A stretch of 64,000 nucleotides of DNA. Source: Umezawaea tangerina (lineage in GTDB: Bacteria; Actinomycetota; Actinomycetes; Mycobacteriales; Pseudonocardiaceae). Below, piece by piece: positions 39,964 through 63,811 of the stretch. Position numbers and translations under genes: made by a program. Location of the stretch: contig NZ_PVTF01000004.1 of the NCBI RefSeq assembly GCF_003002815.1, positions 496,001 to 560,000 of the forward strand, given 5' to 3'. The first letter of the stretch is position 1. Each line of letters opens with the position of its first letter. A model generated the notes under the pieces. That model was not told the origin of the DNA. It did no database searches and saw nothing but the letters and a program-made list of their open reading frames with translations.

Positions 39964-40211
39964 CTGTACGAACGTAGTGGTGCTGGGGGTTGGGGACCGA
40001 ACAGGTGGACCCGGATGGAGGTGGGGTGGGGGCTCTGCGGTTTTCGGTTGGTGCTCGTCACTATGGGAAGAGTGGTGCCGGTCCCTGGTGGAGCCTGGCC
40101 ATGCCCCCCGGTGTGATGCCCAGCCTCCGCCCCTCCCACCCCGCTGGTGAAGCCCGTCTTCCGGCCCTCCCACCCCTGGGAAGCCCAGCCCCCGGCGCGC
40201 GATTGTCTCAA
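39964..40211. other. Gene-free stretch before hairpin element B1
   Basis: No convincing gene. The last 33 nt (40180-40212) are part of the repeated element: the complement of ATTGAGACAATCGCGCGCC and GGGGGCTGGGCTTC, also seen after the hairpin at 50389-50443. Confidence 0.5.
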
Positions 40212-40266
40212 TGCTTGATCTTGCTTGTCAAGACGATAGAGCTGTCTTGACAAGCAAGATCAAGCA
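40212..40266 (-). repeat. Hairpin element B1 (23-bp stem, 9-nt loop)
   Basis: A perfect inverted repeat with core TTGTCAAGAC/GTCTTGACAA and, read on the minus strand, the loop AGCTCTATC. The outer stem TGCTTGATCTTGC differs from copies B2 and B3 but is fully paired. B1 is inverted relative to B2 and B3. Confidence 0.85.
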
Positions 40267-40300
40267 GGAGGGCGCTGTGGATCGGGGGCAGAGGGGAAGT

Positions 40301-40505
40301 CTGGCTTCGCCAGCATCGAGCTTCGCTCGACTCGGGCATCGGGCTTTGCCCGACACTGCATCCTCGGCTTCGCCGTTGGACAGGGCATCCGCGCTTCGCG
40401 TCGGACAAAACATCCGCGCTTCGCGGCGGACCAGGCATCGGCTGGCGCCGACAAGGCCCCAGGCGCTCCGCGCCGGATGCGCGTTGGCGGGCTGCGCCCA
40501 ACGGG
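40301..40505 (-). repeat. Array of about 25-nt mini-hairpin units accompanying B1
   Basis: Eight or nine units, read on the minus strand, each with a short stem around a GNA-type triloop (for example TGGCGAAGCCA, GGCGCGGAGCGCC) followed by GATGCC and TGTCC. The stems change between units but remain paired. The unit order matches array B2. No protein is coded. Confidence 0.75.
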
Positions 40506-40544
40506 GCGGGGTGGGTGGGCGTTGGGGTTGGTTTGGGTTTTGGG

Positions 40545-41615
40545 TTAGTGGATGCGACCCCTGAGCATGATCAGCTTGGGGTGGCGGAGGGTGGTGAGGT
40601 TGGTGCGGGGGTCGTCTGAGTAGACGACTATGTCGGCGGCTGAGCCTTCGGTGAGGTTGGGGTAGCCGAGCCAGGTGCGGGAGGACCAGGAGGCGGCGGC
40701 GATGGCTTGTTCCTTGGTCATGCCGATGCGGTGGAGGGCTTCGATCTCGTCGACGATGTGGCCGTGGTCGATGCCGCCGCCGGCGTCGGTGCCCGCGTAG
40801 ACGGGGATGCCGGCTTCGATGGCTTTGCTGACGGTTGATGAGGCGCGGGCGTGCAGGGAGCGCATGTGGGTGGCGTAGTCGGGGTACTTCGATGCGCTGT
40901 CGGCGATGCCGGGGAAGGTCTCCACGTTGATGAGGGTGGGGACCAGGGCGGTGCCGGAGGTGGCCATCTGGTCGATGGTGGCGTCGGTGAGGCCGGTGCC
41001 GTGTTCGATGCAGTCGATGCCCGCCGCGAGGAGGCCCGGTAGGGCGTCTTCGCCGAAGACGTGGGCGGTGACGCGGGCGCCGTTCTCGTGGGCGACCTTG
41101 ATGGCCTCGGTGAGGACGTCGTCGGACCAGAGCGGGGCGAGGTCGCCCTGGGAGCGGTCGATCCAGTCGCCGACGAGCTTGACCCAGCCGTCGCCGTAGG
41201 CGGCCTGTTCGGCCACGGCGGCGGGCAGGTCGGCCGGGTCCTCGATGTCGATGCCCAGGTACGGGATGTAGCGCTTGGGGCGGACCAGGTGCCTGCCCGC
41301 GCGGATGATGCGGGGCAGGTCGAGGCGCTCCTGCAACGGGCGGGTGTCGATCGGGGAGCCGCAGTCGCGGATGAGCAGGGTGCCCGAGTCGCGGTCGGTC
41401 ACGGCCTGGTCGGCGGCCTCCGGCAGCTCGACCGGACCCTTGGGCCCTATGCCGACGTGGCAGTGGGCGTCGACCAGGCCCGGCAGGAGGTAGCCGCCGT
41501 CGACGACGGTGCGCGCACCGGGGACCTCACGGGTCCGGATGCGGCCGTTGACGACCCACAGGTCGCGCTGGTCGCCGTCCGGGAGGACGACGCCGCGCAG
41601 GTGCAGACCGCTCAT
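40545..41615 (-). CDS. Metal-dependent amidohydrolase (imidazolonepropionase-like)
   Basis: A 356-residue TIM-barrel hydrolase. The metal ligands are visible: DAHCHVG (HxH), VTAHVFGEDA (His), CIEHGTG (His) and AGTDAGGG (Asp), with a Lys in GWVKLVG as likely carbamylated ligand. Close to the prolidase/imidazolonepropionase-like group; substrate unknown. M. tuberculosis carries a similar gene (Rv2915c) after ffh. The ATG overlaps the ffh stop by four bases, so it is translated with ffh. Confidence 0.9.
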   Translation of the reverse strand: MSGLHLRGVVLPDGDQRDLWVVNGRIRTREVPGARTVVDGGYLLPGLVDAHCHVGIGPKGPVELPEAADQAVTDRDSGTLLIRDCGSPIDTRPLQERLDLPRIIRAGRHLVRPKRYIPYLGIDIEDPADLPAAVAEQAAYGDGWVKLVGDWIDRSQGDLAPLWSDDVLTEAIKVAHENGARVTAHVFGEDALPGLLAAGIDCIEHGTGLTDATIDQMATSGTALVPTLINVETFPGIADSASKYPDYATHMRSLHARASSTVSKAIEAGIPVYAGTDAGGGIDHGHIVDEIEALHRIGMTKEQAIAAASWSSRTWLGYPNLTEGSAADIVVYSDDPRTNLTTLRHPKLIMLRGRIH

Positions 41616-43153
41616 TTGTCGAACTTGAACTTGGTCGGGTCGAAGCCGGGCGGCAGGTCGTTGAGGCCGCCCAGGCCAGGGGGCAGCTGGGGCGTGCCGC
41701 CGCCGGGGGGCATGCCCGGCATGCCGCCGCCGGGGAACATGCCGGGGAAACCGCCCTTGATCTTGGGCTGGGTCGGGCCGCGGCCGCTGCCCTTGCCCTT
41801 CTTCCCCTTCTTGCCCTTGCGGTTGTTCTTGCCGCCACCGCCGGGCATGCCGAAGCGGCCCGCCATCTGCGACATCATCTTGCGGGCGTCGAAGAAGCGG
41901 TTGACGAGGTCGTTGACGTCGCTGACCTTCACGCCGGAGCCGTTCGCGATGCGCAGGCGACGGGAAGCGTTGATGATCTTCGGGTCGTCGCGCTCGGCGG
42001 GCGTCATGCCGCGGATGATGGCCTGCACGCGGTCGAGGTGCTTCTCGTCCAGCATGGCGAGCTGGTCCTTCATCTGACCGGCACCGGGCAGCATGCCCAG
42101 CAGGTTCGCGATGGGACCCATCTTGCGGATGGCGAGCATCTGCTCCAGGAAGTCCTCCAGCGTGAGCTGGCCGGACCCCATCTTCTGGGCGGCGACCTCC
42201 GCCTTCTCCTGGTCGAAGGCCTGCTCGGCCTGCTCGATCAGGGTCAGCATGTCGCCCATGCCGAGGATGCGGCTGGCCATCCGGTCCGGGTGGAAGACGT
42301 CGAAGTCCTCGAGCTTCTCACCGTTGGACGCGAACAGGATCGGCTGGCCGGTGACCTCGCGGACGCTCAGCGCGGCACCACCGCGGGCGTCGCCGTCGAG
42401 CTTGGTCAGCACGACACCGGTGAAGCCGACGCCGTCGGCGAAGGCCTGCGCGGTGTTGACCGCGTCCTGGCCGACCATCGCGTCGACGACGAACAGGACC
42501 TCTTCGGGCTGGACGGCGTCGCGGATGTCCTTGGCCTGCTGCATCAGCTCCGCGTCGATGCCGAGACGACCGGCGGTGTCGACGAGCACGATGTCGTGCT
42601 GCGCGCGCCGGGCCTCCTCGATGCCGCGGCGGGCCACGTCCACCGGGTTGCCGACGCCGTTGCCCGGCTCGGGGGCGAACACGGGCACGCCCGCGCGCTC
42701 GCCGACGACCTGGAGCTGGGTCACCGCGTTGGGGCGCTGGAGGTCGCAGGCGACGAGCATCGGCGTGTGGCCCTGGGTCTTCAGCCACTTCGCGAGCTTG
42801 CCCGCCAGCGTCGTCTTGCCCGCACCCTGGAGGCCGGCGAGCATGATCACGGTCGGCGGGTTCTTCGCCAGGTTCAGCCTGCGGGTCTCACCGCCGAGGA
42901 TGCCGACCAGCTCTTCGTTGACGATCTTGATGACCTGCTGGGCCGGGTTCAGCGCGCCGGAGACCTCGGCGCCCTTGGCGCGTTCCTTGATCTTCGCGAT
43001 GAACGTCCGCACCACGAGCAGCGCGACGTCGGCCTCGAGCAGCGCCACCCTGATCTCGCGGCAGGTGGCGTCGATGTCGGCCTCGGAGAGCCGCCCCTTG
43101 CCCCGCAGGTTCTGCAGGACCGAGGTGAGCCGGTCGGAAAGGGTGTTGAACAC
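41612..43153 (-). CDS. ffh: Signal recognition particle GTPase
   Basis: A 513-residue SRP54 homologue that binds signal sequences and 4.5S RNA and targets proteins to FtsY. The N and G domains show GLQGAGKTT, ACDLQRPNA, VDTAGRLGID, and VLTKLDGDARGG. The Met-rich M domain follows (LEDFLEQMLAIRKMGPI). The tail is a Lys-rich segment then Gly/Pro/Met repeats (GMFPGGGMPGMPPGG). The GTG start is the conserved FNTLSDRL beginning. Confidence 0.97.
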   Translation of the reverse strand: MFNTLSDRLTSVLQNLRGKGRLSEADIDATCREIRVALLEADVALLVVRTFIAKIKERAKGAEVSGALNPAQQVIKIVNEELVGILGGETRRLNLAKNPPTVIMLAGLQGAGKTTLAGKLAKWLKTQGHTPMLVACDLQRPNAVTQLQVVGERAGVPVFAPEPGNGVGNPVDVARRGIEEARRAQHDIVLVDTAGRLGIDAELMQQAKDIRDAVQPEEVLFVVDAMVGQDAVNTAQAFADGVGFTGVVLTKLDGDARGGAALSVREVTGQPILFASNGEKLEDFDVFHPDRMASRILGMGDMLTLIEQAEQAFDQEKAEVAAQKMGSGQLTLEDFLEQMLAIRKMGPIANLLGMLPGAGQMKDQLAMLDEKHLDRVQAIIRGMTPAERDDPKIINASRRLRIANGSGVKVSDVNDLVNRFFDARKMMSQMAGRFGMPGGGGKNNRKGKKGKKGKGSGRGPTQPKIKGGFPGMFPGGGMPGMPPGGGTPQLPPGLGGLNDLPPGFDPTKFKFDK

Positions 43154-43212
43154 GGTGCCGCCAGACCTCGCACGTCGTCGGATAGAGCAACGACCAGCGT
43201 AGCCGCACCGGA

Positions 43213-43764
43213 TCAGTCGGGTGTCACGGACAGCCGCACCCGATCCCGACGGGTCAGCACCGTCAGCGCGTGCCAGCCGCGCGGCACCCAGCCCTCGGCG
43301 AACCGGTCGCGCAGCCACGCCGCGCGCCGCACGTGCCGGGCGAACGAGGTCCCGCGCACCAGCCTGCCGCGTTCGACCTGGCCGGCCATGGCCTCCTCGG
43401 CGGTGGCGTCGAGCCACAGGAACTGCCGGTGGCGAACGGCGAGGAAGCCGACCAGCACCAGCCACGCCCTGGTGGTGGGCCTGGTCGACGGCTCGTGGAC
43501 CACCAGCAACCCGGTGCGGCCAGCCGCGAACAGCAGGACCCTCGCCCGGTGCACGAGGTGCACCAGGGGGCGGTAGAACCGGTACGGCAGGCGCGCCGGG
43601 AACACGGTGCGCAACCGCGCGCGGACCTGGTCGGAGTCGAGCACGACCACCGGGACACCGCCCGCGTCCAGGTGTGCCAGCAGGGTGCTCTTGCCGGCCC
43701 CCGGCAGACCGGCCAGCACGACGAGCGAACGTGGCCGAACCGCGACGGCAGTCATCAACTCCAT
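43213..43764 (-). CDS. P-loop kinase-like AAA family protein
   Basis: A 183-residue protein with Walker A GLPGAGKST and a kinase-like layout (VLDSDQVRARLR, then a lid region with VERGRLVRGTSF). It resembles small zeta-toxin- or adenylylsulfate-kinase-like P-loop kinases; function unknown. A palindrome overlaps its start. It sits between glnD and ffh in the same orientation; Rv2917 is at a comparable position in M. tuberculosis but I cannot confirm homology. Confidence 0.8.
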   Translation of the reverse strand: MELMTAVAVRPRSLVVLAGLPGAGKSTLLAHLDAGGVPVVVLDSDQVRARLRTVFPARLPYRFYRPLVHLVHRARVLLFAAGRTGLLVVHEPSTRPTTRAWLVLVGFLAVRHRQFLWLDATAEEAMAGQVERGRLVRGTSFARHVRRAAWLRDRFAEGWVPRGWHALTVLTRRDRVRLSVTPD

Positions 43765-43788
43765 AGTAGGAGGACGTTCGTCCTACTA
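43764..43788. promoter_or_regulatory. Palindrome at the start of the P-loop kinase gene
   Basis: TAGTAGGA, 9 nt, TCCTACTA, with a further inner pair AGGACG/CGTCCT. It begins at the start codon of the gene and extends upstream. It could be a repressor operator or an mRNA hairpin that hides the ribosome site. Confidence 0.45.
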
Positions 43789-43810
43789 GTCCGGTTCACC
43801 CGAAAATTTC

Positions 43811-43843
43811 GGGGGCGGCCCCACCCCTCGACGGGCCGCCCCC
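43811..43843 (-). terminator. Terminator after glnD
   Basis: Perfect 11-bp stem (GGGGGCGGCCC and complement) with an 11-nt loop; a small CCGAAA/TTTCGG hairpin precedes it on the plus strand. It lies 125 nt beyond the glnD stop. Confidence 0.7.
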
Positions 43844-43967
43844 GTGCGGCGCGCCGGTCCCGCTCCCCCCGAAGCGGCCCCTCGCGTCGCGGTGCCAAGC
43901 CTGCCGCGTCACGAGGGGCGCCGGGAGCGCAAGCACCCCGATCGGTTGTGCGTAGTCCTACGCGACC

Positions 43968-46337
43968 TCACCGGGAGGCGGCGAGCACCAGCCGTTCGAT
44001 CTTCTTCCGCAACGTCGAGTCCAGCCCGCCGTCCTCGGTGGCCAGGCTGAACGAGTCCACCACGGTGCCGCCGAGGGTCGCCACGCGCGCCCACCGGATG
44101 TCCACGCCGCACTGCTCCAGCGCGTCCGCCACGTGGTGCAGCAGCCCGATCCGGTCCGCCGCGCGCAGTTCGAGCACGACGGCGCCGGTGGCCTCGTCGT
44201 CGAACCACAGCACCTTGGCGGGCGGTGGGTCCTGCGGCGGGCCGCCGTAGTCGCGTTCCTTGGCGGCCAGCTTGTCGGCCAGCGCCAGCGACCCGTCCAC
44301 GGCCCTGGAGAGCTGCTCGCGCAGCAGGGACGCGTCGGGCAACGACCCGAACCGGGGCGAGACGGTGAAGACGTCGATCACGACGCCCTCGTGGCCCCGC
44401 AACGTCGCCGTGTGCACCTCCAGCGAGTTCAGCGCCAGCACGCCCGCGGCCCTGGACAGCACGCCCGGCCGGTCCGGGGCGGCCATCGTGACCAGCGCGG
44501 CGCCGTCGGTCGGCGTGATCAGCACGTCCGGCTTGCCGGTGGACGCGACCTTCTCCGCCAGTTCCAGCTGGGCCTGGTCGAGCGGCTCCGGGTCGGGCAG
44601 CGGGTCGCCCGCCATCGCGGTCCGGCAGCGGCGCACCAGGTCCGCGATCAGCGACGCCTTCCAGTCCGTCCACACGCCGGGGCCGGTGGCCAGGGAGTCG
44701 GCCTCCGCCAACGCGTGCAGCAGCTCCAGCAGCACCGGGTCGCCGCCGAGGGTGTCGACCACGCGGTGCACGGTCGCGTCGTCCTCGACGTCGCGGCGGG
44801 TCGCGGTGTGCGGCAGCAGCAGGTGGTGGCGGACCATCGCGGTCAGCGTCTCCACGTCCTGCGGCCACAGGCCGAGCCGTTCGCCGATCTGGGTCGCCAG
44901 CGCGGCGCCCACCTCGGAGTGGTCGGTCTGCCTGCCCTTGCCGATGTCGTGCACGAGCGCGCCGAGCAGCAGCAGGTCGGGCCGCGACACGGTGGTCGCG
45001 AGCCGCGCGGCGTGCGCGGTGGCCTGCACGAGGTGCCGGTCGACGGTCCACATGTGCGCGGCGTCGCGCGGCGGCAGGTCGCGCACCGCGCCCCACTCCG
45101 GGAAGAGCCTGCCCCACAACCCGGTGCGGTCCAGGGCTTCCACGACGTCGATCAGCCCGGCACCGCTGCCCAGCAGCGCGAGCAGCTCCTCGCGGGCCTC
45201 GCGCGGCCACGGCTGGCGCAGCTCCGGGGCGGAGTCGGCGAGGCGGGACAGCGTGCCCGCCGCGATCGGGTGCTTGCTGCGCGCGGCGGCCGTCGCGACC
45301 CGCAGCAGCAGCGCCGGGTCCCGGTTCGGCATGGCGTCGCGGGCCAGCGCGACCTCGGCGCCGTGCAGCACCACGCCCTCGTCCAGCGGACGGCGCGCGG
45401 GCGAGCGGCGCAGCGGGGACCTGGCGAACGCGCCGAGCCCGCGCTTGGGCGCTGCGGCACGGGCGGTGCGCATCGAGACGTCCACCGCGTACACGACCGT
45501 GCGCGCGGCCGAGGACAGCGCTCTCGCCAACGCGAACCGGTCGGTGAGGCCGAGCGCGGAGGCGACCTCGTCGCCGTCCTGCGCCCGCAGCACGTCCCTC
45601 GGCTTGCGCGCGACCCGGCGCAGTTCGGTGCGCACGTCGAGCAGGAGCCTGCGGGCGTCGTTGACCTCGACCGACGCCCGGTCGGTCAGCTGGGCCACCG
45701 ACAGCGCGTCCAGCAGCGTGATGTCGCGCAGGCCGCCGCGGCCGTGCTTGAGGTCCGGTTCGACGCGGTGCGCGATCTCGCCGCTGCGCGCCCACCGCCG
45801 CTGCGCGGACTCGGCCATCTCGTCGAGCCGGGTGCGGACGTTGGAGCGCCACGCCTGGCGCGCGCTCTCCGCGAGTCGTTGGGACACCTCGGGGTCTCCC
45901 GCGAGGTGGCGGACGTCGAGCAGTCCGAGCGCGGTCCGCAGGTCGCCCGCGGCCACCCGCAGACCCTCGCCGACGGTGCGCACGGAGTGGTCGAGCCCGA
46001 CACCGGAGTTCCACAGCGGGTACCAGAGCTTGTCGGCGACCGCGTCGATCCCCTTGTGCCCGTTGTGCACCAGGACGAGGTCGAGGTCGGAGTAGGGCAC
46101 CAGTTCCCTTCGCCCCAGCCCGCCGACGGCGACCAGCGCCATGCCGGGGCCCGCGACCCCCGCGCTCGTGGCGTGCGCGGTCAGCCAGAACTCGTGCAGG
46201 TCGACCAGGGCTTCGCGCAGGAGCTCCCCCGTCAGCCGCTTGCGGCCGGGCGCCAGCAGTCTGTCGCGGGCCTTCACCAGGTCGTCAGCGGTCACGATCT
46301 CCGAACCAGAGTTCGCCTCGGCCGAGACGCTGTCCAT
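43968..46337 (-). CDS. glnD: PII uridylyltransferase/adenylyltransferase GlnD
   Basis: A 789-residue nitrogen sensor that modifies PII according to glutamine; in actinobacteria the modification is adenylylation. Domains in order: nucleotidyltransferase (GGLGRRELVPYSDLDLVLVH), GlnE-like helical region, HD hydrolase (LVHDIGKGRQTDHSEVG, AMVRHHLLLPHTA) and two ACT domains (APDRPGVLSRAAGVLAL, and AADRIGLLHHVADALEQCGVDI). The ATG at 46337 follows GAAGGCGG. It is the third gene of amtB-glnB-glnD. Confidence 0.96.
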   Translation of the reverse strand: MDSVSAEANSGSEIVTADDLVKARDRLLAPGRKRLTGELLREALVDLHEFWLTAHATSAGVAGPGMALVAVGGLGRRELVPYSDLDLVLVHNGHKGIDAVADKLWYPLWNSGVGLDHSVRTVGEGLRVAAGDLRTALGLLDVRHLAGDPEVSQRLAESARQAWRSNVRTRLDEMAESAQRRWARSGEIAHRVEPDLKHGRGGLRDITLLDALSVAQLTDRASVEVNDARRLLLDVRTELRRVARKPRDVLRAQDGDEVASALGLTDRFALARALSSAARTVVYAVDVSMRTARAAAPKRGLGAFARSPLRRSPARRPLDEGVVLHGAEVALARDAMPNRDPALLLRVATAAARSKHPIAAGTLSRLADSAPELRQPWPREAREELLALLGSGAGLIDVVEALDRTGLWGRLFPEWGAVRDLPPRDAAHMWTVDRHLVQATAHAARLATTVSRPDLLLLGALVHDIGKGRQTDHSEVGAALATQIGERLGLWPQDVETLTAMVRHHLLLPHTATRRDVEDDATVHRVVDTLGGDPVLLELLHALAEADSLATGPGVWTDWKASLIADLVRRCRTAMAGDPLPDPEPLDQAQLELAEKVASTGKPDVLITPTDGAALVTMAAPDRPGVLSRAAGVLALNSLEVHTATLRGHEGVVIDVFTVSPRFGSLPDASLLREQLSRAVDGSLALADKLAAKERDYGGPPQDPPPAKVLWFDDEATGAVVLELRAADRIGLLHHVADALEQCGVDIRWARVATLGGTVVDSFSLATEDGGLDSTLRKKIERLVLAASR

Positions 46338-46363
46338 CAGGCCGCCTTCCCCGTGATCGGCAA

Positions 46364-46400
46364 GACGGGGCATGCGGATGACGCTCCCGCATGCCCCGTC
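46364..46400 (-). terminator. Hairpin between glnB and glnD
   Basis: A perfect 14-bp stem (GACGGGGCATGCGG and complement) with a 9-nt loop, 16 nt beyond the glnB stop. It likely lowers glnD expression relative to amtB-glnB. Confidence 0.75.
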
Positions 46401-46416
46401 CCAGACTTCATCGCTA

Positions 46417-48303
<1,887 letters not shown>

Positions 48304-48375
48304 TCATTCGGGTCCGGAACAGCCCGTGAACACGCTTCGCAACAACGTTTCCGATCTTCGACTTTCCGGGTGACG

Positions 48376-48413: not shown

Positions 48414-48422
48414 GGTCGGGTC

Positions 48423-50172: not shown

Positions 50173-50354
50173 CATTGGGCGCAGCCCGCCAACGCGCATC
50201 CGGCGCGGAGCGCCTGGGGCCTTGTCCGCCGCGCAGCAAGGATGCCCTGTCCGCCGCGAAGCGCGGATGCCTTGTCCAACGGCGAAGCCGAGGATGCTTT
50301 GTCGGACGGAGTCCGATGCTTGAGTCAGGCGCAGCCTGATGCTGGCGAAGCCAG
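50173..50354 (+). repeat. Array of about 25-nt mini-hairpin units accompanying B2
   Basis: About eight units such as GGCGCGGAGCGCC, CCGCGCAGCAAGGATGCC, CGCGAAGCGCGGATGCC, GGCGAAGCCGAGGATGC, GGACGGAGTCCGATGC, AGGCGCAGCCTGATGC and CTGGCGAAGCCAG. Each contains a stem around GAA, GCA or GGA; linkers read TTGTCC. Unit order is that of B1. Confidence 0.75.
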
Positions 50355-50388
50355 ACTTCCCCTCTGCCCCCGATCCACAGCGCCCTCC

Positions 50389-50443
50389 TGCCCGATCTTC
50401 GTTGTCAAGACAGCTTCATCGTCTTGACAACGAAGATCGGGCA
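50389..50443 (+). repeat. Hairpin element B2 (23-bp stem, 9-nt loop)
   Basis: Core TTGTCAAGAC/GTCTTGACAA with loop AGCTTCATC. The outer stem TGCCCGATCTTCG is fully paired. Against B1 it differs at four outer positions, each compensated on the opposite arm. It is followed by TTGAGACAATCGCGCGCC, identical to the B1 flank. Confidence 0.85.
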
Positions 50444-50501
50444 TTGAGACAATCGCGCGCCGGGGGCTGGGCTTCGCTCACTCCCCCCAACCCCACACCC
50501 C

Positions 50502-52843: not shown

Positions 52844-52848
52844 GCGGC

Positions 52849-55568: not shown

Positions 55569-56449
55569 TACGCCCTCCCTGAAAGGTTCTCGACGACCTT
55601 GAGCAGGGCGGAGTGGTCGAGGGAGCCGTACCCCTGCGCCCGTCCCGCCGCGATGAGCTGGGCGATCAGCCCCGTCACCGGTAGTGCGACGTCGACCTGC
55701 CGGGCCGCGGCCAGCGCGATGCCCATGTCCTTGTGGTGCAGGTCGATCCGGAACCCCGGCGCGAACTCGCGGGCGATCATGCCCTCCCGCTTGAGGTCCA
55801 GGATCCGGTTGGCGGCCAGGCCGCCCGCGAGCACGTCGAGGCCCGCCTTCGCGTCCACGCCGGACGCCTCCAGCAGCACGATGGCCTCGGCGACGAGCGC
55901 GTAGATGCCGCCGACCATGAGCTGGTTGGCCGCCTTCACGACCTGGCCCGCGCCGTGCGGGCCGACGTGGACGACGGTCTTGCCGACGGCGTCCAGCACG
56001 GGCCGCGCCGCCGCGAAGTCGGCCTCCTCGCCGCCGACCATGATCGACAACGTGGCCTGCTTCGCCCCCGCCTCACCACCGGACACGGGGGCGTCGAGCA
56101 CCCGGATCCCCTTGGCGGCGGCGGCTTCCGCCACGGCCACCGAGGTCTCCGGCCGGATCGTGCTCATGTCGACCAGCAGCGTCCCCGGCGCCGCGAGCTC
56201 CAGCACCCCGCCCTCGCCGAGCGCGACCTCCTCGACCTGCGGGTGGTTCGGCAGCATGGTGATCACAACGTCCGCGCCCGCCACCGCGTCGGCGACGCTC
56301 GCCGCCGCCGTGCCGCCCGCCGCGACGAGCTTCGCGACCGAGTCGGCGTTGAGGTCGAAGCCGGTCACCCGGTGGCCCGCCGCGACGAGGTGCCCGGACA
56401 TGGGCGAGCCCATGATGCCGAGGCCGATGAACCCGATGGTGGTCGTCAC
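55568..56449 (-). CDS. glxR: Tartronate semialdehyde reductase
   Basis: A 293-residue beta-hydroxyacid dehydrogenase that reduces tartronate semialdehyde to D-glycerate. It has GFIGLGIMGSPMSGHLVAAG (NAD(P) loop), VDMSTIRPETS, DAPVSGGEAGAKQATLSIMVGG and the catalytic Lys in GAGQVVKAANQLMVGG. The GTG overlaps the hyi stop and the gene is coupled to gcl. Confidence 0.95.
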   Translation of the reverse strand: MTTTIGFIGLGIMGSPMSGHLVAAGHRVTGFDLNADSVAKLVAAGGTAAASVADAVAGADVVITMLPNHPQVEEVALGEGGVLELAAPGTLLVDMSTIRPETSVAVAEAAAAKGIRVLDAPVSGGEAGAKQATLSIMVGGEEADFAAARPVLDAVGKTVVHVGPHGAGQVVKAANQLMVGGIYALVAEAIVLLEASGVDAKAGLDVLAGGLAANRILDLKREGMIAREFAPGFRIDLHHKDMGIALAAARQVDVALPVTGLIAQLIAAGRAQGYGSLDHSALLKVVENLSGRA

Positions 56450-57237
56450 TGGTCTTCCTCCCTGGTGAGCCAGCCGAAGCTGGCGGCGCTGGGGCCGGTG
56501 GGCTTGTACTCGGCGCCGACGAACCCCTGGTAGCCGTTCGACTCGAGCTGGGCGAGGTACCGCTCCAGCTCCAGCCCGCCGGAACCCGGTTCGCCGCGGC
56601 CGGGGGCGTCGGCGATCTGCACGTGGCCGATCCGCGCGGTGTGCTCCGCGATCACGGCGTCGACGTCGTCCCCGTTGACGCTGAGGTGGTACAGGTCGGC
56701 GAGCAGGGCCACGTTCGGCTTGCCCAGCCGGTCGATCACGGCGAGCGCGTCGGCCGCGGTGAGCAGCGGGTAGGCCGGGACGGCGCTGACCGGTTCGAGC
56801 AGCACGGTCGCGTCGACCGCGGCCGCGGCGTCGGCGGCGAACGCGAGGTTCCGCAGCGCCAGCGCGTCCTGCTCCGCCGGGTCGACGCCCTCGATCCGGT
56901 TGCCGTACAGGGCGTTGAACGCGCGGCAGCCCGTCTCGCGGGCGATGCCGACCGCGATGTCGACGCTCGCCTTGAACTCGCCCTCGCGGCCGGGCCACGA
57001 CACCAGGCCGCGGTCGCCCGACGGCAGGTCGCCCGCGAAGAAGTTGAGGCCGACCAGGCGGACGCCCGCGTCGGTGATCGCGCCGACGAGCTCCGCGACC
57101 TCGCGCTCGTCCGGCTGGGCGACCGCGAACGGCCACCACAGCTCGACCGCGTCGAACCCGGCGGCGCGGGCGGCCGCGGGGCGGTCGAGCAGCGGCAGCT
57201 CGGTGAACAGGATCGAGAGGTTGACGTCGAACCGCAT
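56446..57237 (-). CDS. hyi: Hydroxypyruvate isomerase
   Basis: A 263-residue TIM-barrel isomerase interconverting hydroxypyruvate and tartronate semialdehyde. It shows NLSILFTELPLLDRPAAARAAGF, ALYGNRIEG, LLEPVSAVPAYPLLTAADA, LLADLYHLSVNGDDV and IGHVQIADAPGRGEPGSG. The ATG at 57237 is 6 nt from GGAAGGA. It is the first gene of the hyi-glxR-gcl-glxK-allB-alc run and divergent from uraD, with operators between. Confidence 0.95.
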   Translation of the reverse strand: MRFDVNLSILFTELPLLDRPAAARAAGFDAVELWWPFAVAQPDEREVAELVGAITDAGVRLVGLNFFAGDLPSGDRGLVSWPGREGEFKASVDIAVGIARETGCRAFNALYGNRIEGVDPAEQDALALRNLAFAADAAAAVDATVLLEPVSAVPAYPLLTAADALAVIDRLGKPNVALLADLYHLSVNGDDVDAVIAEHTARIGHVQIADAPGRGEPGSGGLELERYLAQLESNGYQGFVGAEYKPTGPSAASFGWLTREEDQ

Positions 57238-57256
57238 GAGCATTCCTTCCACAATG

Positions 57257-57272
57257 CGGAAGTAAGATTCCG
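57257..57272. promoter_or_regulatory. IclR-type operator near hyi
   Basis: CGGAA, 6 nt, TTCCG. The half-site matches that at 57354-57371 and one half-site at aceB. It is just downstream of the proposed hyi promoter. Confidence 0.55.
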
Positions 57273-57281
57273 TACAACGAG

Positions 57282-57311
57282 AGCGTAGGCGGCAATCGCG
57301 GAAGAGCGCAA
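57282..57311 (-). promoter_or_regulatory. Probable hyi operon promoter
   Basis: Minus strand TTGCGC (57311-57306), 18 nt, TACGCT (57287-57282). The CGGAA-type operator follows at about +10 to +25. Confidence 0.45.
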
Positions 57312-57316
57312 GACTG

Positions 57317-57345
57317 TTGACAGCGCTCGACCCCGCTCGTACCGT
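57317..57345 (+). promoter_or_regulatory. uraD-uricase promoter
   Basis: TTGACA (57317-57322), 17 nt, TACCGT (57340-57345): a consensus -35 and a good actinobacterial -10. The palindromic operator begins 8 nt after the -10. Confidence 0.7.
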
Positions 57346-57353
57346 CCCTCTCT

Positions 57354-57371
57354 GCGGAATCAGAATTCCGC
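57354..57371. promoter_or_regulatory. Palindromic operator at the uraD transcription start
   Basis: GCGGAAT, 4 nt, ATTCCGC: perfect arms covering the expected transcription start, a position suited to repression. The probable ligand regulator is the IclR protein encoded at 62439 (AllR-like), an inference from the shared half-sites. Confidence 0.6.
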
Positions 57372-57393
57372 GATACAGAAAAGGAACGCGCCT

Positions 57394-57873
57394 GTGCCTG
57401 GCCTGCAAGCGTTCAACACCGCACCGGCGGACGAGCTCCGCCCGCTGCTCACCGAATGCCTCGCGGTCCCCCGCTGGGTGGACGCCGTCCTCGCCGCCCG
57501 GCCCTACCCGGACGTCGACGCGCTGGTCGCCGCCGCCGAGGTGGACCTGAGCACCGACGAGATCCACGGCGCCATCGCGGGCCACCCCCGCATCGGCGAG
57601 CGCGCCCGGCACGACGGGGTGTCCGCGAAGTGGTCGGCGGCCGAGCAGTCCGGCGTCGACCTGTCCGTCGCGGACCGGCTCGTCGCCGCGAACCTCGCCT
57701 ACGAGGAGCGGTTCGGCCACATCTACCTGGTGTGCGCGACCGGGCTCAGCGGCGAGCAGATGCTGGCGGACCTGGCGTCCCGGATGGGCAACGACCCCGA
57801 CACCGAACTCCGCGTGGTCAACGGCGAACTGGCCAGGATCGCGGCCTTGCGGCTGCGCAAGGCCATCGCCTGA
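57394..57873 (+). CDS. uraD: 2-oxo-4-hydroxy-4-carboxy-5-ureidoimidazoline decarboxylase
   Basis: A 159-residue enzyme for the last step of urate to (S)-allantoin. The signature HPRIGERA contains the catalytic His, and the later AEQSGVDLSVADRLVAANLAYEERFGHIYLVCATG is the family core. The GTG follows AAGGAACG. The gene for 5-hydroxyisourate hydrolase, usual between uraD and uricase, is absent; uricase starts 34 nt later. Confidence 0.94.
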   Translation: MPGLQAFNTAPADELRPLLTECLAVPRWVDAVLAARPYPDVDALVAAAEVDLSTDEIHGAIAGHPRIGERARHDGVSAKWSAAEQSGVDLSVADRLVAANLAYEERFGHIYLVCATGLSGEQMLADLASRMGNDPDTELRVVNGELARIAALRLRKAIA

Positions 57874-57907
57874 GATGCACGCACACACCGACCAAGGGAG
57901 CTGATCG

Positions 57908-58786
57908 ATGGGCATCATCCTGGGGCCGAACCAGTACGGGAAGGCCGAGAACCGCCTCGTCGTGGTGTCGCGCGACGGGTCCGTGCACACCGTCAAGGAC
58001 CTGACGGTCAGCACCTCGCTGCGCGGCGACCTGGCCGACACCCACCACACCGGCGACAACTCGAAGGTGCTCGCCACCGACACGCAGAAGAACACCGTCT
58101 ACGCGTTCGCCAAGCAGGCGCCCGTCGGCGAGATCGAGGACTTCGCACTGCGGCTCGGCAGGCACTTCGTCTCGTCCCAGGAGGCCATCACCGGCGCCCG
58201 CGTGCTCGTCGACGAGCACGGGTGGAACCGGATCGACGCCAACGACCACTCGTTCGTCCAGGGCGGCAACGAGAAGCGCACCACCGCGGTCACCGTCCAC
58301 GGGGACGACGCGTGGGTCGTGTCCGGCGTGCGCGACCTCGTCGTGCTCAAGTCGACCGGGTCGGAGTTCCACGGCTTCCCGAAGGACCCGTACACGACGC
58401 TGAAGGAGACCGACGACCGCATCCTGGCCACGTCGGTCACCGCCCGGTGGCGCTACCTGGGCACCGACGTCGACTGGGCGAAGGCCTACCCCGAGATCCG
58501 GGGCCTGCTGCTGGAGGCCTTCGCCACCAAGCACAGCCTCTCGCTGCAGCAAACCCTCTACACCATGGGCGAGTCCGTCCTCCTGGCCAGGCCCGACGTC
58601 GCCGAGGTCCGCCTCTCCATGCCCAACAAGCACCACTTCCTCGTCAACCTCAGCCCGTTCGGGCTGGAGAACGACAACGAGGTGTTCTACGCCGCCGACC
58701 GCCCCTACGGGCTCATCGAGGGCACCGTGCTGCGCGACGACGCCCAGGACGCCGGACACGCCTGGGACACCCTGCCCACCTTCTGA
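57908..58786 (+). CDS. uox: Urate oxidase (uricase)
   Basis: A 292-residue cofactor-free oxidase making 5-hydroxyisourate from urate and O2. Family pieces: LGPNQYGKAENRLVVV, DNSKVLATDTQKNTVYAFAK (the catalytic Thr region), DHSFVQGGNEKRTT, LKSTGSEFHGFPKDPYTTL and MPNKHHFLVNLSPFGLENDNEVFYAADRPYG. The ATG has GGGAG upstream. It ends the uraD-uox transcript, with a strong terminator following. Confidence 0.96.
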   Translation: MGIILGPNQYGKAENRLVVVSRDGSVHTVKDLTVSTSLRGDLADTHHTGDNSKVLATDTQKNTVYAFAKQAPVGEIEDFALRLGRHFVSSQEAITGARVLVDEHGWNRIDANDHSFVQGGNEKRTTAVTVHGDDAWVVSGVRDLVVLKSTGSEFHGFPKDPYTTLKETDDRILATSVTARWRYLGTDVDWAKAYPEIRGLLLEAFATKHSLSLQQTLYTMGESVLLARPDVAEVRLSMPNKHHFLVNLSPFGLENDNEVFYAADRPYGLIEGTVLRDDAQDAGHAWDTLPTF

Positions 58787-58794
58787 TGCCTTCG

Positions 58795-58822
58795 GGGGTG
58801 GTGCGACCTCCCGCACCACCCC
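58795..58822 (+). terminator. Terminator after uricase
   Basis: Perfect 11-bp stem (GGGGTGGTGCG and complement) with a 6-nt loop, 8 nt beyond the stop codon. Confidence 0.8.
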
Positions 58823-58937
58823 TGACCTGCGATATTCACCCTAAAGTGGTGCACATCACTCGTTCGGAGCAATCTCGTGTCTCACAGAGCACCACACGGT
58901 GTCCGCAAGATGTCGAAAAGGCCGTACTCTCGCGAAC

Positions 58938-59243
58938 ATGAGTGATGTCAAACGGGGTCTCTCGCCGGTCACGATGTTCCTGGACGACGAGGCCGTGATC
59001 ACCGTTTCGGGCGCACTGGACGCCACGACGGCTCCGGACTTCAAGCGCATGGTCACCGACTTCTTCGAGTTGGCCGACCGCCCCGACACCGACGTGCTGA
59101 CGTTGGACCTCTCCTCCGTCTCCGCCTGCGACCAGGCCGCCCGCGACCTCGTCCGCTACGCCCAGTCCATCTGCTCCGACCGCTCCATGGCCCTCCGCGT
59201 AGTCCCCAGCGCCCCCGTCAGCCGCGCCCTGACCAAGCACTAG
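58938..59243 (+). CDS. STAS-domain protein, anti-sigma factor antagonist-like
   Basis: A 101-residue single STAS domain (FLDDEAVITVSGALDATTAPDFKRMV, VLTLDLSSVSACDQAARDLVRYA). Typical SpoIIAA-type antagonists have a phosphorylatable Ser in a DSSG-like motif after the third strand; here the corresponding stretch is ACDQAA, with no Ser at that position. It may thus be a constitutively active antagonist or bind another partner. There is no anti-sigma kinase gene beside it. No clear ribosome site precedes the ATG. Confidence 0.8.
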   Translation: MSDVKRGLSPVTMFLDDEAVITVSGALDATTAPDFKRMVTDFFELADRPDTDVLTLDLSSVSACDQAARDLVRYAQSICSDRSMALRVVPSAPVSRALTKH

Positions 59244-59596
59244 GCAAAGGGCAACAAAGCAGCCAGCCACCCAACAACGCTGACAGCAGCACCACAAGCT
59301 GGCCTACCCAACGACGCTGGAAGCGGCCAACAAGCGGCCCACGACGCTGGAAGCGAGCGGTGCTCGTCCGCTAGTGCGGTCGGCTTGACTTGGGGTTTTT
59401 GGGCTTAAACTTGCGGCGGCGGGCAGGCTCTACCACCTGCCCTTTTTCGCCCGACGAAGCCCAAAAAAGGGGCCCCAAGTCAAGCCGACCGCACCCGGAG
59501 ACAGCTATAGCGACACCCCGTAGTCCGCTGCACCGACCCCCGGAGACCCCGGCACCGACACCCCCGGCGGCTAGAACACCGGGCAAGCCCCACGAA
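59244..59596. other. Gene-free interval with repeats around the second 122-bp element
   Basis: No gene. CCCAACAACGCTG and ACGACGCTGGAAGCG phrases recur in 59260-59360, then the 122-bp element (59374-59494), then degenerate CCCCGGAGACC-type phrases (59495-59570). The arrangement is that of 14775-15070. Confidence 0.6.
59374..59494. repeat. 122-bp inverted-arm element, copy 2
   Basis: Same orientation as copy 1 at 14875-14996; one substitution (CTTAAAC for CTTAGAC) and one A fewer in the A-run. The outer 22-nt arms are identical and fully paired. Located between convergent genes, it could also stop transcription. Confidence 0.8.
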
Positions 59597-60784
59597 CTAC
59601 CCCCGACTAGCAAGCCCCCTCAAATCCCCCACTCCCAACCCCGTCACCCTCAACACCTCCGCCTCCCCCAACGCCCCGCACTCCAAAGCCCGCAAGAACG
59701 ACGACGACAACGCCTGCGCCGTAGCAGGCTCGTCCAGCACCGTCCCCCCAGCCCGATCCACGTACGCCTTCAGCCGCCGCGCGTCCCCCTCCACCCCTTC
59801 GAGGTAGAACGCGTGCACCGCCGCGTACCGCGTGACCAGTTGCGCCGGGTGCAGGTCCCAGCCCTGGTAGAAGCCGTGCGCCAACGACCGCCGCACGAGT
59901 CCGTAGTGGGTCCGCCAGCCCTCTTCGACCGCGTCGCCGACCGGCAGGACGTTGGTCGAGCCGTCGGACACCCGGATCCCCGCGTTGGCCGCCGCCACCT
60001 GCATCACGTTGCGCGCGAAGTCGCACGCCCCGTGCGCCAGGTGCTGGTGCGCCGCCCCGAGCCCGCACCCGGCCGTGTAGTCGTAGGTCCCGAAGTGCAG
60101 TCCGGACACCCGACCGCGCCCGGCTTCGACGAACCGGGGGATCGCCAGCCTGCCCTCGGGGTCCACGACGGACTGGGTGGTCTCGACCTGGATCTCGAAC
60201 CGCAGCGGGATCCCGAACATGTCCAGGATCTCCCCGAACACCTCGACCTGCTCCGCCGACGTCACCTTGGGGAACGTCAGCACGAAGCCGGGCGGCGGAT
60301 CCCCCAGCGCGGTCAGGAAGACGTCCAGCGTCCGGATCCCGCGTTCCCGCAACGCCCTGGTGTCGAACGACTTCATCCGGATCCCGACGTACGGCGGCAG
60401 CACGCCGTCCCGCGCCCATCCCGCGACGACACCGGCGGTGCGTTCCGCGTCGGCGTCCTCCACGTCGTCGCCGGGTGCGCCGTACCCGTCCTCGAAGTCG
60501 ATCCTCAGGTCCTCCACGGGCTCGGCCGCCAGCTTCGCCCGCACCCGCTCGCGGATCACCGGCGCCAGCTCCGCGGGCAGCAACGCGGTCAGCGCGTCCT
60601 CGTGCGAGTCCAACGCCGCAAGCGCTTGCGCACCCCAGTCGCGCACCAGGTCGCCGGTCACCGCCGACGCGGGGACGTAGCAGGTGTGCACGGGCTGCCT
60701 GCCGTCGGGCAGCGTGCGCTCCACATCGGACAGCCGTGCGGTGGCGGCCGCGACCGCCACCGCGTCGAGCGACGTCCTCGGCAC
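59597..60784 (-). CDS. HpcH/HpaI-type aldolase/citrate lyase-like protein (DUF6986)
   Basis: A 395-residue TIM-barrel protein. Metal-binding acidic residues are likely in DLRIDFEDGYGAPGDDVEDA and in RFEIQVETTQSV; LHFGTYDYTAGCGL and SLAHGFYQGWDLHPAQLVTRYAAV are also family-like. Similar proteins are next to malate synthase in other actinobacteria. Function may be in C4/C5 acid cleavage; unproved. It starts one nucleotide after the aceB stop, so both form one transcript. Confidence 0.82.
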   Translation of the reverse strand: MPRTSLDAVAVAAATARLSDVERTLPDGRQPVHTCYVPASAVTGDLVRDWGAQALAALDSHEDALTALLPAELAPVIRERVRAKLAAEPVEDLRIDFEDGYGAPGDDVEDADAERTAGVVAGWARDGVLPPYVGIRMKSFDTRALRERGIRTLDVFLTALGDPPPGFVLTFPKVTSAEQVEVFGEILDMFGIPLRFEIQVETTQSVVDPEGRLAIPRFVEAGRGRVSGLHFGTYDYTAGCGLGAAHQHLAHGACDFARNVMQVAAANAGIRVSDGSTNVLPVGDAVEEGWRTHYGLVRRSLAHGFYQGWDLHPAQLVTRYAAVHAFYLEGVEGDARRLKAYVDRAGGTVLDEPATAQALSSSFLRALECGALGEAEVLRVTGLGVGDLRGLASRG

Positions 60785-60785
60785 G

Positions 60786-62327
60786 TCAGGGGATCCGGGC
60801 GTACGCGGGGACGGTCAGGAAGTCCGCGAACTCCTCGCTCAGCGCGACCTGTTCGAACAGCTCCGCGGCCAGCTCGACGTGCTCGCCGGACAGCTCGAAC
60901 TTGGTGCGCGCCAGCACTTCCCGCACCAGGTCCGCCGTCACCGGCGTGCCGTCGCCGAGCACGACCTTGTTGTGCACCCACTGCCACAGCTGGGAGCGCG
61001 AGATCTCGGCGGTGGCCGCGTCCTCCATCAGGTTGTGGATCGCCGCCGCGCCGTTGCCGCCCAACCAGGACACCAGGTAGCGCAGGCCGACGTCCACAGC
61101 GGACTCGACACCCGCCCTGGTCGCCTCGCCGCCGGTGGCCTTGAAGTCCAGCAGCTGAGCGGCCGTCACGGACACGTCCTCGCGCTGCCGGTCGAGCTGG
61201 TTCGGCGCGTCCCCGAGCTTCGCGTCGAAGATCTCCTTGCACACCGGCACGAGGTCCGGGTGCGCCACCCACGAGCCGTCGAACCCGTCGTTCGCCTCGC
61301 GGTTCTTGTCGTCGCGCACCTTCGTCAACGCCTGCGCGGTGACCTCCGGGTCACGCCGGTTCGGGATGAACGCCGCCATGCCGCCCATCGCGAACGCCCC
61401 GCGCTTGTGGCAGGTGCGGACCAGCAGCTCGGTGTAGGCGCGCATGAACGGCGCCGTCATCGTGATGCTGTTGCGGTCGGGCAGCACGAAGTCCGCGCCC
61501 GCGTCGCGGAAGTACTTGATGATGCTGAACAGGTAGTCCCAGCGGCCCGCGTTGAGCCCCGACGCGTGCTCGCGCAGCTCGTAGAGGATCTCCTCCATCT
61601 CGAACGCCGCCGGGATCGTCTCGATCAGCACGGTCGCGCGGATCGTGCCGTGCTCCACGCCCAACCGCTCCTCGGCCGCCGTGAACACGTCGTTCCACAG
61701 CCGCGCCTCGAGGTGGCTCTCCATCTTCGGCAGGTAGTAGTACGGCTTGCCGAGCGACGCGTTGTGGAAGAAGTGCAGCCCGAAGTCCACCAGCGCGCCC
61801 ACCGCGGACCGGCCGTCGAACTCCAGGTGCCGCTCGTCCAGGTGCCAGCCGCGCGGCCGCACCACGATCGCGGGCCGCTCCACGTCGTCCTTCAACGCGT
61901 AGTGCTTGCCCTCCGGGGAGGTGAACTCGATCGTGCCGCGCGCCGCGTCGTACAGGTTGACCTGCCCCGACACCACGTTCTCCCAGTGCGGCGTGTTCGC
62001 GTCCTCCAGATCCGCGAGCCACACCTTCGCCCCCGAGTTGAGCGCGTTGATCGCCATCTTCCGCTCGGTCGGCCCGGTGATCTCCACCCGCCGGTCGGTC
62101 AACGCCTCGGGCGCGGGCGCCACCCGCCACTCCGCCTCCCGGACCTCCGCCGTCTCCGGCAGGAAGTCCAACGTCCCCGAAGCCCGCCGCTCCGCCCGCC
62201 GCGCCAGCAGATCGTCGCGGGTGGCCGCGAAGTCGCGGTGCAGCCCCGCCACGAACTCGAGCGCTTCCGGCGTCAGGACCTCCTCACCACGATCGACCTG
62301 GCCGCCGAGGACGCGGATGTCGGACAT
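60786..62327 (-). CDS. aceB: Malate synthase A
   Basis: A 513-residue enzyme joining glyoxylate and acetyl-CoA to malate. Conserved pieces are [97 protein letters not shown] and [10 protein letters not shown], covering the catalytic Arg, Glu and Asp. The ATG at 62327 is the conserved start. In this setting it consumes glyoxylate from purine breakdown. No aceA (isocitrate lyase) is in the window. Confidence 0.95.
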
Positions 62328-62366
62328 GGAGGTCCACCTCGCTTCTGGGGGCTGTGTTTCTACTTC

Positions 62367-62393
62367 GCGGACTATAGTTTTTGCATAGCGGAA
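62367..62393. promoter_or_regulatory. GCGGA half-sites overlapping the aceB promoter
   Basis: GCGGAC (62367-62372) touches the -10 box and GCGGAA (62388-62393) lies in the spacer, 21 bp apart (two helical turns). The half-site is that of the hyi/uraD operators, suggesting one regulator for both. Confidence 0.5.
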
Positions 62394-62399
62394 CTGCAA
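62371..62399 (-). promoter_or_regulatory. aceB promoter
   Basis: Minus strand TTGCAG (62399-62394), 17 nt, TATAGT (62376-62371). A near-consensus promoter in an AT-rich patch. Confidence 0.7.
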
Positions 62400-62438
62400 C
62401 GATGGTTAGACTCCAGCCGGTCTACCAGGGGAGTGATC

Positions 62439-63194
62439 ATGGCGCGCGAGTCGTCAGGCGGAGTCCAGTCCCTCCAACGCGCCTTCGACCTGCTCGAACG
62501 CCTCGCGGACGCCGGCGGCGAAGCCAGCCTCTCCGAGCTCGCCGCCACCTCGGGCCTCCCCCTCCCGACCATCCACCGCCTCATCCGCACCCTTGTCACG
62601 CTGGGGTACGTGCGCCAGAACCGCAACCGCCGCTACACCCTCGGCTCCCGCCTCATCCGCCTCGGCGAGAGCGCGGGCCGCCAATTCGGCACCTGGGCCC
62701 GCCCCTTCCTGACCGAGTTGGTCGACCAGGTGGAGGAAACGGCGAACCTCGCCGTCCTGGACGGCGACGAGGTCGTCTACGTCGCCCAGGTGCCCTCGAA
62801 GCACTCCATGCGCATGTTCACCGAAGTCGGCAGACGCCTCCTCCCCCACGGCACCGGCGTCGGCAAAGCAATGCTCTCCCAACTCCCCCGCCCAGAAGTC
62901 CAGGCACTCCTGGACCGCACCGGCCTTCCCGCCTACACCCCGAACACCATCACCGACCCGGCAGAACTCCTGGACTCCCTCGACCGCATCGCCGACCAGG
63001 GCTACGCCCTCGACGAAAGCGAACAGGAACTAGGCGTCCGCTGCATCGCAGTCCCCCTGTCCGGCGCCCCCACCCTCTCCGCCGTCTCCGTCTCCGGCCC
63101 CGAAGGCCGACTCACCAAGGACGCCGTCGCCCGCATCCTCCCCGAGGTCCTGGCCATCGCGAAACGCCTAAGCGACCAAGCCGCCAACTCCTAA
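62439..63194 (+). CDS. IclR-family regulator (AllR-like)
   Basis: A 251-residue regulator: N-terminal winged helix (VQSLQRAFDLLERLADAGGEASLSELAATSGLPLPTIHRLIRTL) and C-terminal effector domain (ETANLAVLDGDEVVYVAQVPSKHSMRMF, LPHGTGVGKAMLSQL, ESEQELGVRCIAVPL). In allantoin systems such regulators are released by glyoxylate or allantoin-related ligands. It is divergent from aceB with the half-sites between, and likely controls the whole purine-glyoxylate region. The ATG follows GGGGAGTGATC. Confidence 0.9.
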   Translation: MARESSGGVQSLQRAFDLLERLADAGGEASLSELAATSGLPLPTIHRLIRTLVTLGYVRQNRNRRYTLGSRLIRLGESAGRQFGTWARPFLTELVDQVEETANLAVLDGDEVVYVAQVPSKHSMRMFTEVGRRLLPHGTGVGKAMLSQLPRPEVQALLDRTGLPAYTPNTITDPAELLDSLDRIADQGYALDESEQELGVRCIAVPLSGAPTLSAVSVSGPEGRLTKDAVARILPEVLAIAKRLSDQAANS

Positions 63195-63231
63195 AACACA
63201 CCCCAACACCCAACGCGAACGCCCTCCTCAC

Positions 63232-63635
63232 CGAGCGCAGCCCACCAACACCCATCCGACGCGCAGCAAGGACGCCTCGTCCGACGCGCAGCGAGGACGC
63301 CTCGTCCGACGCGCAGCGAGGACGCCTCGTCCGACGCGCAGCGAGGACGCCTCGTCCGACGCGCAGCGAGGACGCCTCGTCCGACGCGCAGCGAGGACGC
63401 CTCGTCCGACGCGCAGCGAGGACGCCTCGTCCGACGCGCAGCGAGGACGCCTCGTCCGACGCGCAGCGAGGATGCCTTCCCTGTCCAACGGCGCAGCCGA
63501 GGATCCCCACCGGGGCGCAGCCCGCCACCTCGCATCCGGCGCGGAGCGCCTAGAGCCTTGTCCGCAGCGCAGCAAGGATGCCCAGTCCGACGCGCAGCCG
63601 AGGATGCCCTGTCCGTCGCGGAGCGTCGGATGCCC
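63232..63635 (+). repeat. Array B3, including nine 25-bp direct repeats
   Basis: Repeats of exactly 25 bp start at 63258, 63283, 63308, 63333, 63358, 63383, 63408, 63433 and 63458; the first has one A for G and the last is divergent. Each unit has GCGCAGC and CGAGGACGCCTCG, both able to fold. Flanking units (GGCGCGGAGCGCCTAGAGCC, GTCGCGGAGCGTCGGATGCC) resemble those of B1/B2. Confidence 0.85.
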
Positions 63636-63678
63636 TCCCCACCCACACTCCCCCCACGCACCCCGCCGAAAAACCATC

Positions 63679-63741
63679 TCTATACCCGCCGAATCTTGTC
63701 AAGACAGCCCTATCGTCTTGACAAGATTCGGCGGGTATAGA
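63679..63741 (+). repeat. Hairpin element B3 (27-bp stem, 9-nt loop)
   Basis: Core TTGTCAAGAC/GTCTTGACAA with loop AGCCCTATC. The outer stem TCTATACCCGCCGAATC is unlike B1/B2 in sequence but perfectly paired. It is followed by ACAATCGGCGAGCCGGGG, a variant of the B1/B2 downstream flank. Confidence 0.85.
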
Positions 63742-63811
63742 ACAATCGGCGAGCCGGGGTGCCCCCAAACAAACCCCGAAACAACACCCCCACCCTGATC
63801 AGCCCAAATAT

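Follow-up and report, generated by a model that had tools for sequence, protein, structure and literature searches.

Elements that replicate by a rolling circle need a priming site for the displaced strand. At single-strand origins (sso) the folded single-stranded DNA is often read as a promoter by RNA polymerase, as described in passages of two reports (PMC4595007; PMC5714925), and a section of a third (PMC11541004) describes the secondary structure of Frpo as mimicking duplex promoter DNA with −35 and −10 boxes. The family of long hairpins considered here was encountered in a 64,000-nt stretch of Umezawaea tangerina (RefSeq assembly GCF_003002815.1, contig NZ_PVTF01000004.1, positions 496,001 to 560,000 of the forward strand), referred to as the window, which holds three copies named B1, B2 and B3. 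These hairpins are probably dispersed relatives of an sso-like element with a folded promoter, other copies of which are found on actinomycete integrative and conjugative elements (AICE); their kinship with the AICE hairpin is firmer than the function assigned to that hairpin.

The three perfect hairpins of the window lie at 40212-40266, 50389-50443 and 63679-63741, with arms of 23, 23 and 27 nt and loops of 9 nt. An original prediction, made from the letters of the window, had described them as sharing a core and the loop AGCYYYATC (B1 on the minus strand), a conserved flank ACAATCG... beside the stem, four outer-stem differences between B1 and B2 that are all compensated, and adjoining arrays of about 25-nt units; each of these features is present, and the arrays are located 5' of the hairpins when the AGCYYYATC strand is read. 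Its family of three copies was a large undercount, as the core TTGTCAAGAC-N4-14-GTCTTGACAA occurs in 131 exact copies in the 10.68 Mb genome of the window; the reversed pattern occurs in none, so the family is no product of chance. With up to two mismatches and a 9-nt loop, 177 copies are found in this genome and 74 and 134 in two further genomes of the genus. A compensated core, TTGTCAAGGC/GCCTTGACAA, occupies every place in the congener G001 among the matches listed, and the G001-type 29-mer is exact in at least 120 record stretches, the 80 titled ones being from Amycolatopsis, Umezawaea endophytica and an Actinokineospora. Own-genome tiles, 463 kb in total and picked to surround copies already known, contain 24 perfect hairpins with arms of at least 20 nt, and 22 of these belong to the family.

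The original prediction had also proposed a covariance-model search, a covariation test and a search for a co-occurring transposase. The first of these, scoring at most 18 candidates per genome, gave matches in 47 of 200 genomes of the taxonomic family and in 14 of its 46 genera, the window's own genome included; a class-wide sample of other genomes gave a match in one of 196. Copy number in the 200 genomes is uneven, with many copies in a few lineages and one to four in the remaining matched ones; the few-copy matches, in other genera, number 37 in 28 genomes. Neither of two queries matched a plasmid record (E up to 0.01). Most copies (L044-L163) were collected by the exact 29-nt core, so the conservation of the core is in part an artefact of selection; TTGACA was also part of the collecting patterns, and the outer stem and the xAxxxT box discussed below were absent from every one of them.

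The complete element is about 115 nt long and consists of an outer stem (CCCCG/CGGGG with further pairs), an internal loop, a main stem usually of 23−27 bp and the 9-nt loop. It spans 40182-40296 on the minus strand for B1 (R1 model match 40182-40295, 93.5 bits), and 50359-50473 (B2) and 63653-63767 (B3) on the plus strand, the latter two placed by hairpin search and the R1 model. Across aligned copies the inner part of the main stem is constant and the outer part variable, yet paired: in 52 diverse copies 96.6% of 1634 cells are paired, as opposed to 74.2% in shuffles, 364 cells are changed on both sides (102.5 shuffled), and the covariation score is 0.554 (0.133 shuffled). Shifting the partner by one column lowers pairing to 43−47%. 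This alignment holds 52 of 58 chosen diverse copies; the other six, with broken stems or rearranged flanks, were omitted, which favors pairing. Among dispersed copies, 106 distinct stems (six stems shorter than 20 pairs omitted) contain 2584 Watson-Crick, 11 G·T, 2 A·C and 6 other pairs; outside the core the figures are 1527, 8, 2 and 6, or 99.0% Watson-Crick (1527/1543). Predicted RNA folding energies are far below those of shuffles in all seven sequences, and DNA folding energies in five of six, the sixth being an AICE copy (L190) that one shuffle equalled.

Within this fold lies a regular promoter-like geometry. The strand with the loop AGCYYYATC or ATCTTTCCC is termed the A-loop strand; on it, TTGACA is followed 17−19 nt later by a box of the form xAxxxT in 143/143 copies, compared to 26/143 on the complement; the count took the 143 of 144 copies that have TTGACA. 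The box is mostly CACAAT, GACAAT, CACACT or AACACT, and its spacing stays at 17−19 nt across perfect arms that usually measure anything from 23 to 27 bp. All 115 distinct sequences keep the spacing, compared with a mean of 18.8 and a maximum of 31 in shuffles. In B1 (minus strand) the −35-like TTGACA lies in the 3' arm at 40226-40231 and the −10-like GACAAT just beyond the stem at 40202-40207; in B2 (plus strand) the two lie at 50424-50429 and 50448-50453 (GACAAT), as read from the sequence and in keeping with the spacing statistics, and both copies have a spacer of 18. B3 (plus strand) has TTGACA at 63718-63723 and, after a spacer of 17, AACAAT at 63741-63746, at the junction of stem and internal loop. 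A generic promoter scan of B1 and B3 finds both sites at 10/12, with shuffle means of 0.0 and 0.2. In predicted single-stranded DNA folds 5, 5 and 4 of the six bases of the −10 box are unpaired in B1, B2 and B3, respectively, the first and last being paired in B3. The variable outer part of the stem would so be the spacer between the −35 and −10 boxes, a model that would explain why its sequence drifts freely while its pairing and length are obligatory.

Many of the few-copy matches lie near genes of rolling-circle elements. A relative of RepSA, the pSAM2-type rolling-circle protein, is encoded within 15 kb of 22 of the 37 matches; all 22 hairpins lie on the RepSA strand, with the RepSA gene 5.6−9.9 kb downstream. 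Because a true element also gives an R1 match on its reverse strand (E 1.6e-12 to 2.2e-8), the strands of few-copy matches were checked by sequence. The xAxxxT box stands 17−20 nt from TTGACA in 21/21 copies near RepSA and in 23 of 27 parsed few-copy loci overall (three of 30 loci were unparsable). Pfam matches in two of the islands comprise RepSA (E about 1e-102), a TraB-like FtsK/SpoIIIE protein and a tyrosine integrase. Six of the seven islands tested are bounded by direct repeats of 36−56 bp that enclose the hairpin, one of the repeats being 147−204 bp away from it; in the seventh, G078, direct-repeat matches are 14−16 bp only. The hairpin was also considered as the attachment site itself, a candidate that was rejected as the repeats lie outside it at this distance in six of the seven islands. 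Cassette sites of the attC type were a further candidate and were set aside.

Stems near RepSA are less perfectly paired than the dispersed ones and admit more G·T. Outside the core only 76% of their pairs (239/315) are Watson-Crick, compared to the 99.0% of dispersed stems, and the 21 parsed stems read on the A-loop strand contain 382 Watson-Crick, 77 G·T, 0 A·C and 24 other pairs; for all 27 parsed few-copy loci the counts are 509, 84, 1 and 27. The excess of G·T over A·C indicates that the A-loop strand is the one that folds, or is under structural constraint. Taken together, copy count, covariation and this G·T signature support the earlier proposal of a dispersed family with real covariation that acts as a folded single strand. 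The near-perfect chromosomal stems and the G·T-tolerant stems near RepSA also constitute a natural experiment on the upkeep of palindromes, which may rest on selection or on templated copying; a palindrome-preserving copying process had been among the options of the original prediction.

The G·T excess on one strand would fit G·U pairs in RNA equally well, and the G·T-rich strand is the sense strand of the neighboring RepSA genes; together with the very low folding energies, these points speak for a structured RNA, in which the hairpin would be part of a transcript (a leader or a 3'-end RNA) and pairing would be kept for the RNA fold. This is considered unlikely: it leaves TTGACA and xAxxxT at a fixed spacing inside the fold unexplained, the chromosomal copies are without a clear strand preference relative to neighboring genes, and Rfam gave no match in window 39500-64000 (E up to 0.1) or in 15 loci (gathering score). 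An sso-like promoter in single-stranded DNA is favored over a plain non-coding RNA because of the −35/−10 geometry and the strand-locked position by RepSA.

By analogy with known origins, the AICE hairpin most likely acts as an sso. The rep-sense strand is presumably the displaced strand of RepSA elements; on folding, TTGACA and the stem would provide a duplex −35 box and spacer, the xAxxxT-type box (xACAAT), mostly unpaired in the internal loop, would serve as a pre-opened −10 region, and the outer stem (CCCCG/CGGGG) would form the downstream duplex. RNA polymerase would then start a primer RNA on this fold, leading to second-strand synthesis; primase-dependent priming of the AICE hairpin is a live alternative. 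Based on common sequence and architecture, the chromosomal copies most likely derive from the AICE hairpin and would have multiplied in a few lineages; the direction from AICE to chromosome is supported, though not proven, by the wider spread of the AICE form.

Several observations weigh against this account. RepSA relatives are lacking within 15 kb of 15/37 few-copy matches, and 10 of 31 near-full-length RepSA genes in few-copy genomes have no hairpin match nearby. RepSA is also common, being found in 159/200 genomes of the family, so RepSA alone does not predict the element. Within the genus, four RepSA regions (one in G000, three in G001; nine were counted) gave no R1 match at E up to 1, and the AICE-type pattern is absent from the genomes of the genus; the link to RepSA thus rests on other genera. 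A 19-nt spacer, the commonest, is longer than usual in sigma-70-type promoters, and the −10 box begins with C, G or A rather than T. In the covariation analysis, pairs that change on both sides number 20/32 versus 18.2 in shuffles, and 56 further types compare with 55.2, neither a clear excess; the copies are related to one another, so counts are not independent. Convergent gene pairs flank most chromosomal copies, and neither strand is clearly preferred (tandem sites 4 versus 4 and 21 versus 15), a placement that reveals no use. Lastly, a passage of PMC4170104 reports the sso of pSN22 as independent of RNA polymerase.

None of the copies examined for location (22 own and 86 others, called with a simple codon-usage gene caller) lies within a predicted gene; copies at locus edges, 2/24 own and 38/124 others, were left out of these counts. 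Convergent genes flank 13/22 own copies and 42/86 others, compared with 26/126 and 60/264 for intergenic gaps of at least 150 bp not otherwise matched in length, and divergent genes flank 1/22 and 8/86. The frequency of convergent sites and rarity of divergent ones, along with perfect pairing that would serve both directions, could be expected of bidirectional terminators or 3'-end protectors common to convergent genes. That explanation is judged very unlikely, given that a T-rich tail (5 T in 8 nt, starting 0−2 nt past the arm) follows 0/144 copies on the A-loop strand and 26/144 on the complement, and that the conserved core, the loop and ACAAT would be left unexplained. A terminator scan lists none at the window hairpins, but it is blind to 9-nt loops and is thus no test. 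Convergent placement is equally compatible with the element being tolerated at sites away from promoters and with a function at 3' ends.

Individual loci were compared among relatives. Around B2, G002 aligns collinearly with the window for 12 kb (90% identity); its ortholog has a different core (A-T to G-C), loop and outer stem but retains full pairing, and the syntenic site in G001 is without an element. At the B1 locus the element is present in both congeners, the G002 copy having one stem mismatch. Orthologous loci of Amycolatopsis often show blockwise differences in the outer stem that affect the two arms jointly, a pattern that may reflect conversion among copies. In the same genus a second small repeat, caatgtcgccNccaggcgacgagccg, with its own hairpin, lies downstream of the hairpin at L057, L068, L080, L081 and L112. 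A perfect arm of 52 nt at a contig end (L089) is probably an assembly palindrome rather than biology. Many-copy elements of genus g26 (L176) have a 10-nt loop like that of the AICE copies; this suggests a separate burst of spread.

Presence and absence at the syntenic B2 site, terminal CCCCG/CGGGG inverted repeats and a high copy number limited to some lineages are features of an ordinary transposon resembling a miniature inverted-repeat transposable element (MITE), whose palindrome would be related to a transposase only and whose promoter likeness would be incidental. Long, variable yet paired stems and strand-specific G·T pairs are unexpected of MITEs, and at the one empty site, in G001, target duplication is not visible, the flanks being too diverged; with no helper transposase identified in a search of PF01797 alone, a MITE-like origin is held to be quite unlikely. 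The same search bears on mobilization by a transposase of the type associated with repetitive extragenic palindromes (REP/RAYT), which had been raised in the original prediction. PF01797 (Y1) has 0 matches in the three genomes of the genus, G000, G001 and G002, and the candidate is rejected for the genus; five of the 41 genomes searched had one.

As to the means of dispersal, a plasmid-type sso may have turned into a self-spreading chromosomal repeat by snap-back copying and transposase-free re-insertion, although this is rather unlikely. The folded element would prime or snap back, so that its 3' arm is templated by its 5' arm, which would yield near-perfect stems with drifting sequence; re-insertion between genes would need no transposase from the copies themselves and might be aided by AICE replication. 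If true, the chromosome would contain more than 100 orientation-specific promoters that fire only where DNA becomes single-stranded. Folded promoters scattered in this way could report or repair exposed single strands.

The arrays are a companion of the element in the window's genus, outside its core. The hairpin and array had been presented as one composite, which holds at the window copies; the two are separable elsewhere, as nine printed copies from Amycolatopsis and Actinokineospora and the G001 copy at the B1 locus are, by eye, without an array. The B1 array occupies 40297-40505 (minus strand) and the B2 array 50173-50370 (plus strand), both mini-hairpin arrays recognized from sequence and repeats and lying outside the strict array definition. 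The B3 array (63232-63632, plus strand) consists of near-identical 25-bp tandem units followed by mixed mini-hairpin units, with a strict GNA array at 63492-63542; its approximately nine near-identical units at 63255-63480 are far more uniform than those of B1 and B2, which suggests recent expansion. In the own-genome tiles, where only arrays of GC-GNA-GC mini-hairpins were sought, 13/13 arrays of at least three such units lie within 450 nt 5' of a long hairpin and on its strand, and 12 of 23 hairpins have one. GNA accounts for 117 of 124 triloops closed by C-G with stems of at least 4 in the 5' stretches, and for 76 of 107 with any closing pair and stems of at least 5. GNA triloops are known for their exceptional stability in single-stranded DNA. 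Should the element prime synthesis, copying would begin with the array as template.

Genes near the AICE hairpins include a reverse transcriptase matching the defense-associated family DRT RT_UG22 (L218:5422-7107; E 1.7e-142), an NsnA-like GmrSD_N protein with a DNA methylase nearby (L208:5374-8406) and a SoFic-like Fic protein (L213:3293-4690); by their resemblance these may be defense cargo, and the AICE slot a defense hotspot. Cluster c0 (L211:9238-9714 and homologs) comprises a conserved protein of approximately 150 residues, for which the one member tested is without a Pfam or NCBIfam match; homologs are encoded near 16/20 few-copy hairpins, each on the hairpin strand.

Among known systems, the hairpin promoters of the N4 virion RNA polymerase and the d(GCGNAGC) mini-hairpins form stable GNA triloops in single-stranded DNA, and their resemblance to the neighboring arrays is one of loop type only. 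AICEs transfer double-stranded DNA through TraB. The likeness to Frpo and other single-strand initiation (ssi) sites lies in a fold that presents −35 and −10 boxes, in 143/143 copies by spacing; as a point of difference, Frpo drives early genes of the leading region, according to a section of PMC11541004. With REPs and REPINs the element shares many short, palindromic, extragenic copies; it is longer than REPs, given as 20−40 bp in a part of PMC3733652, and a Y1 transposase is absent from all three genomes of the genus.

The AICE hairpin would be a specific candidate for the lagging-strand origin in AICEs of the RepSA type, none having been found in the open-licence papers searched; in the portion of an AICE survey (PMC3218068) covered by a term search, the words "sso" and "hairpin" are absent. 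The core sequence retrieved no related work, judged by title, among the 20 listed of 51 literature matches, and open-licence papers yielded nothing on dispersed single-strand origins. An sso-like element present as a high-copy chromosomal repeat in several genera would, if spread in this manner, represent a new kind of repeat. The closest counterparts are the sso themselves (ssoA/ssoU, sso1 of ICEBs1 and sti of pIJ101). Like these, the AICE copies are folded non-coding elements on a rolling-circle replicon, as is the case for 22 of the 37 few-copy matches, with the window copies being chromosomal repeats. As described for sso in part of PMC4595007, structure likely matters besides or instead of sequence. 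Sso work in one orientation, on the displaced strand; all 22 hairpins near RepSA lie on the rep-sense strand. Unlike these sso, the present element is a single very long stem, and the likeness is one of architecture.

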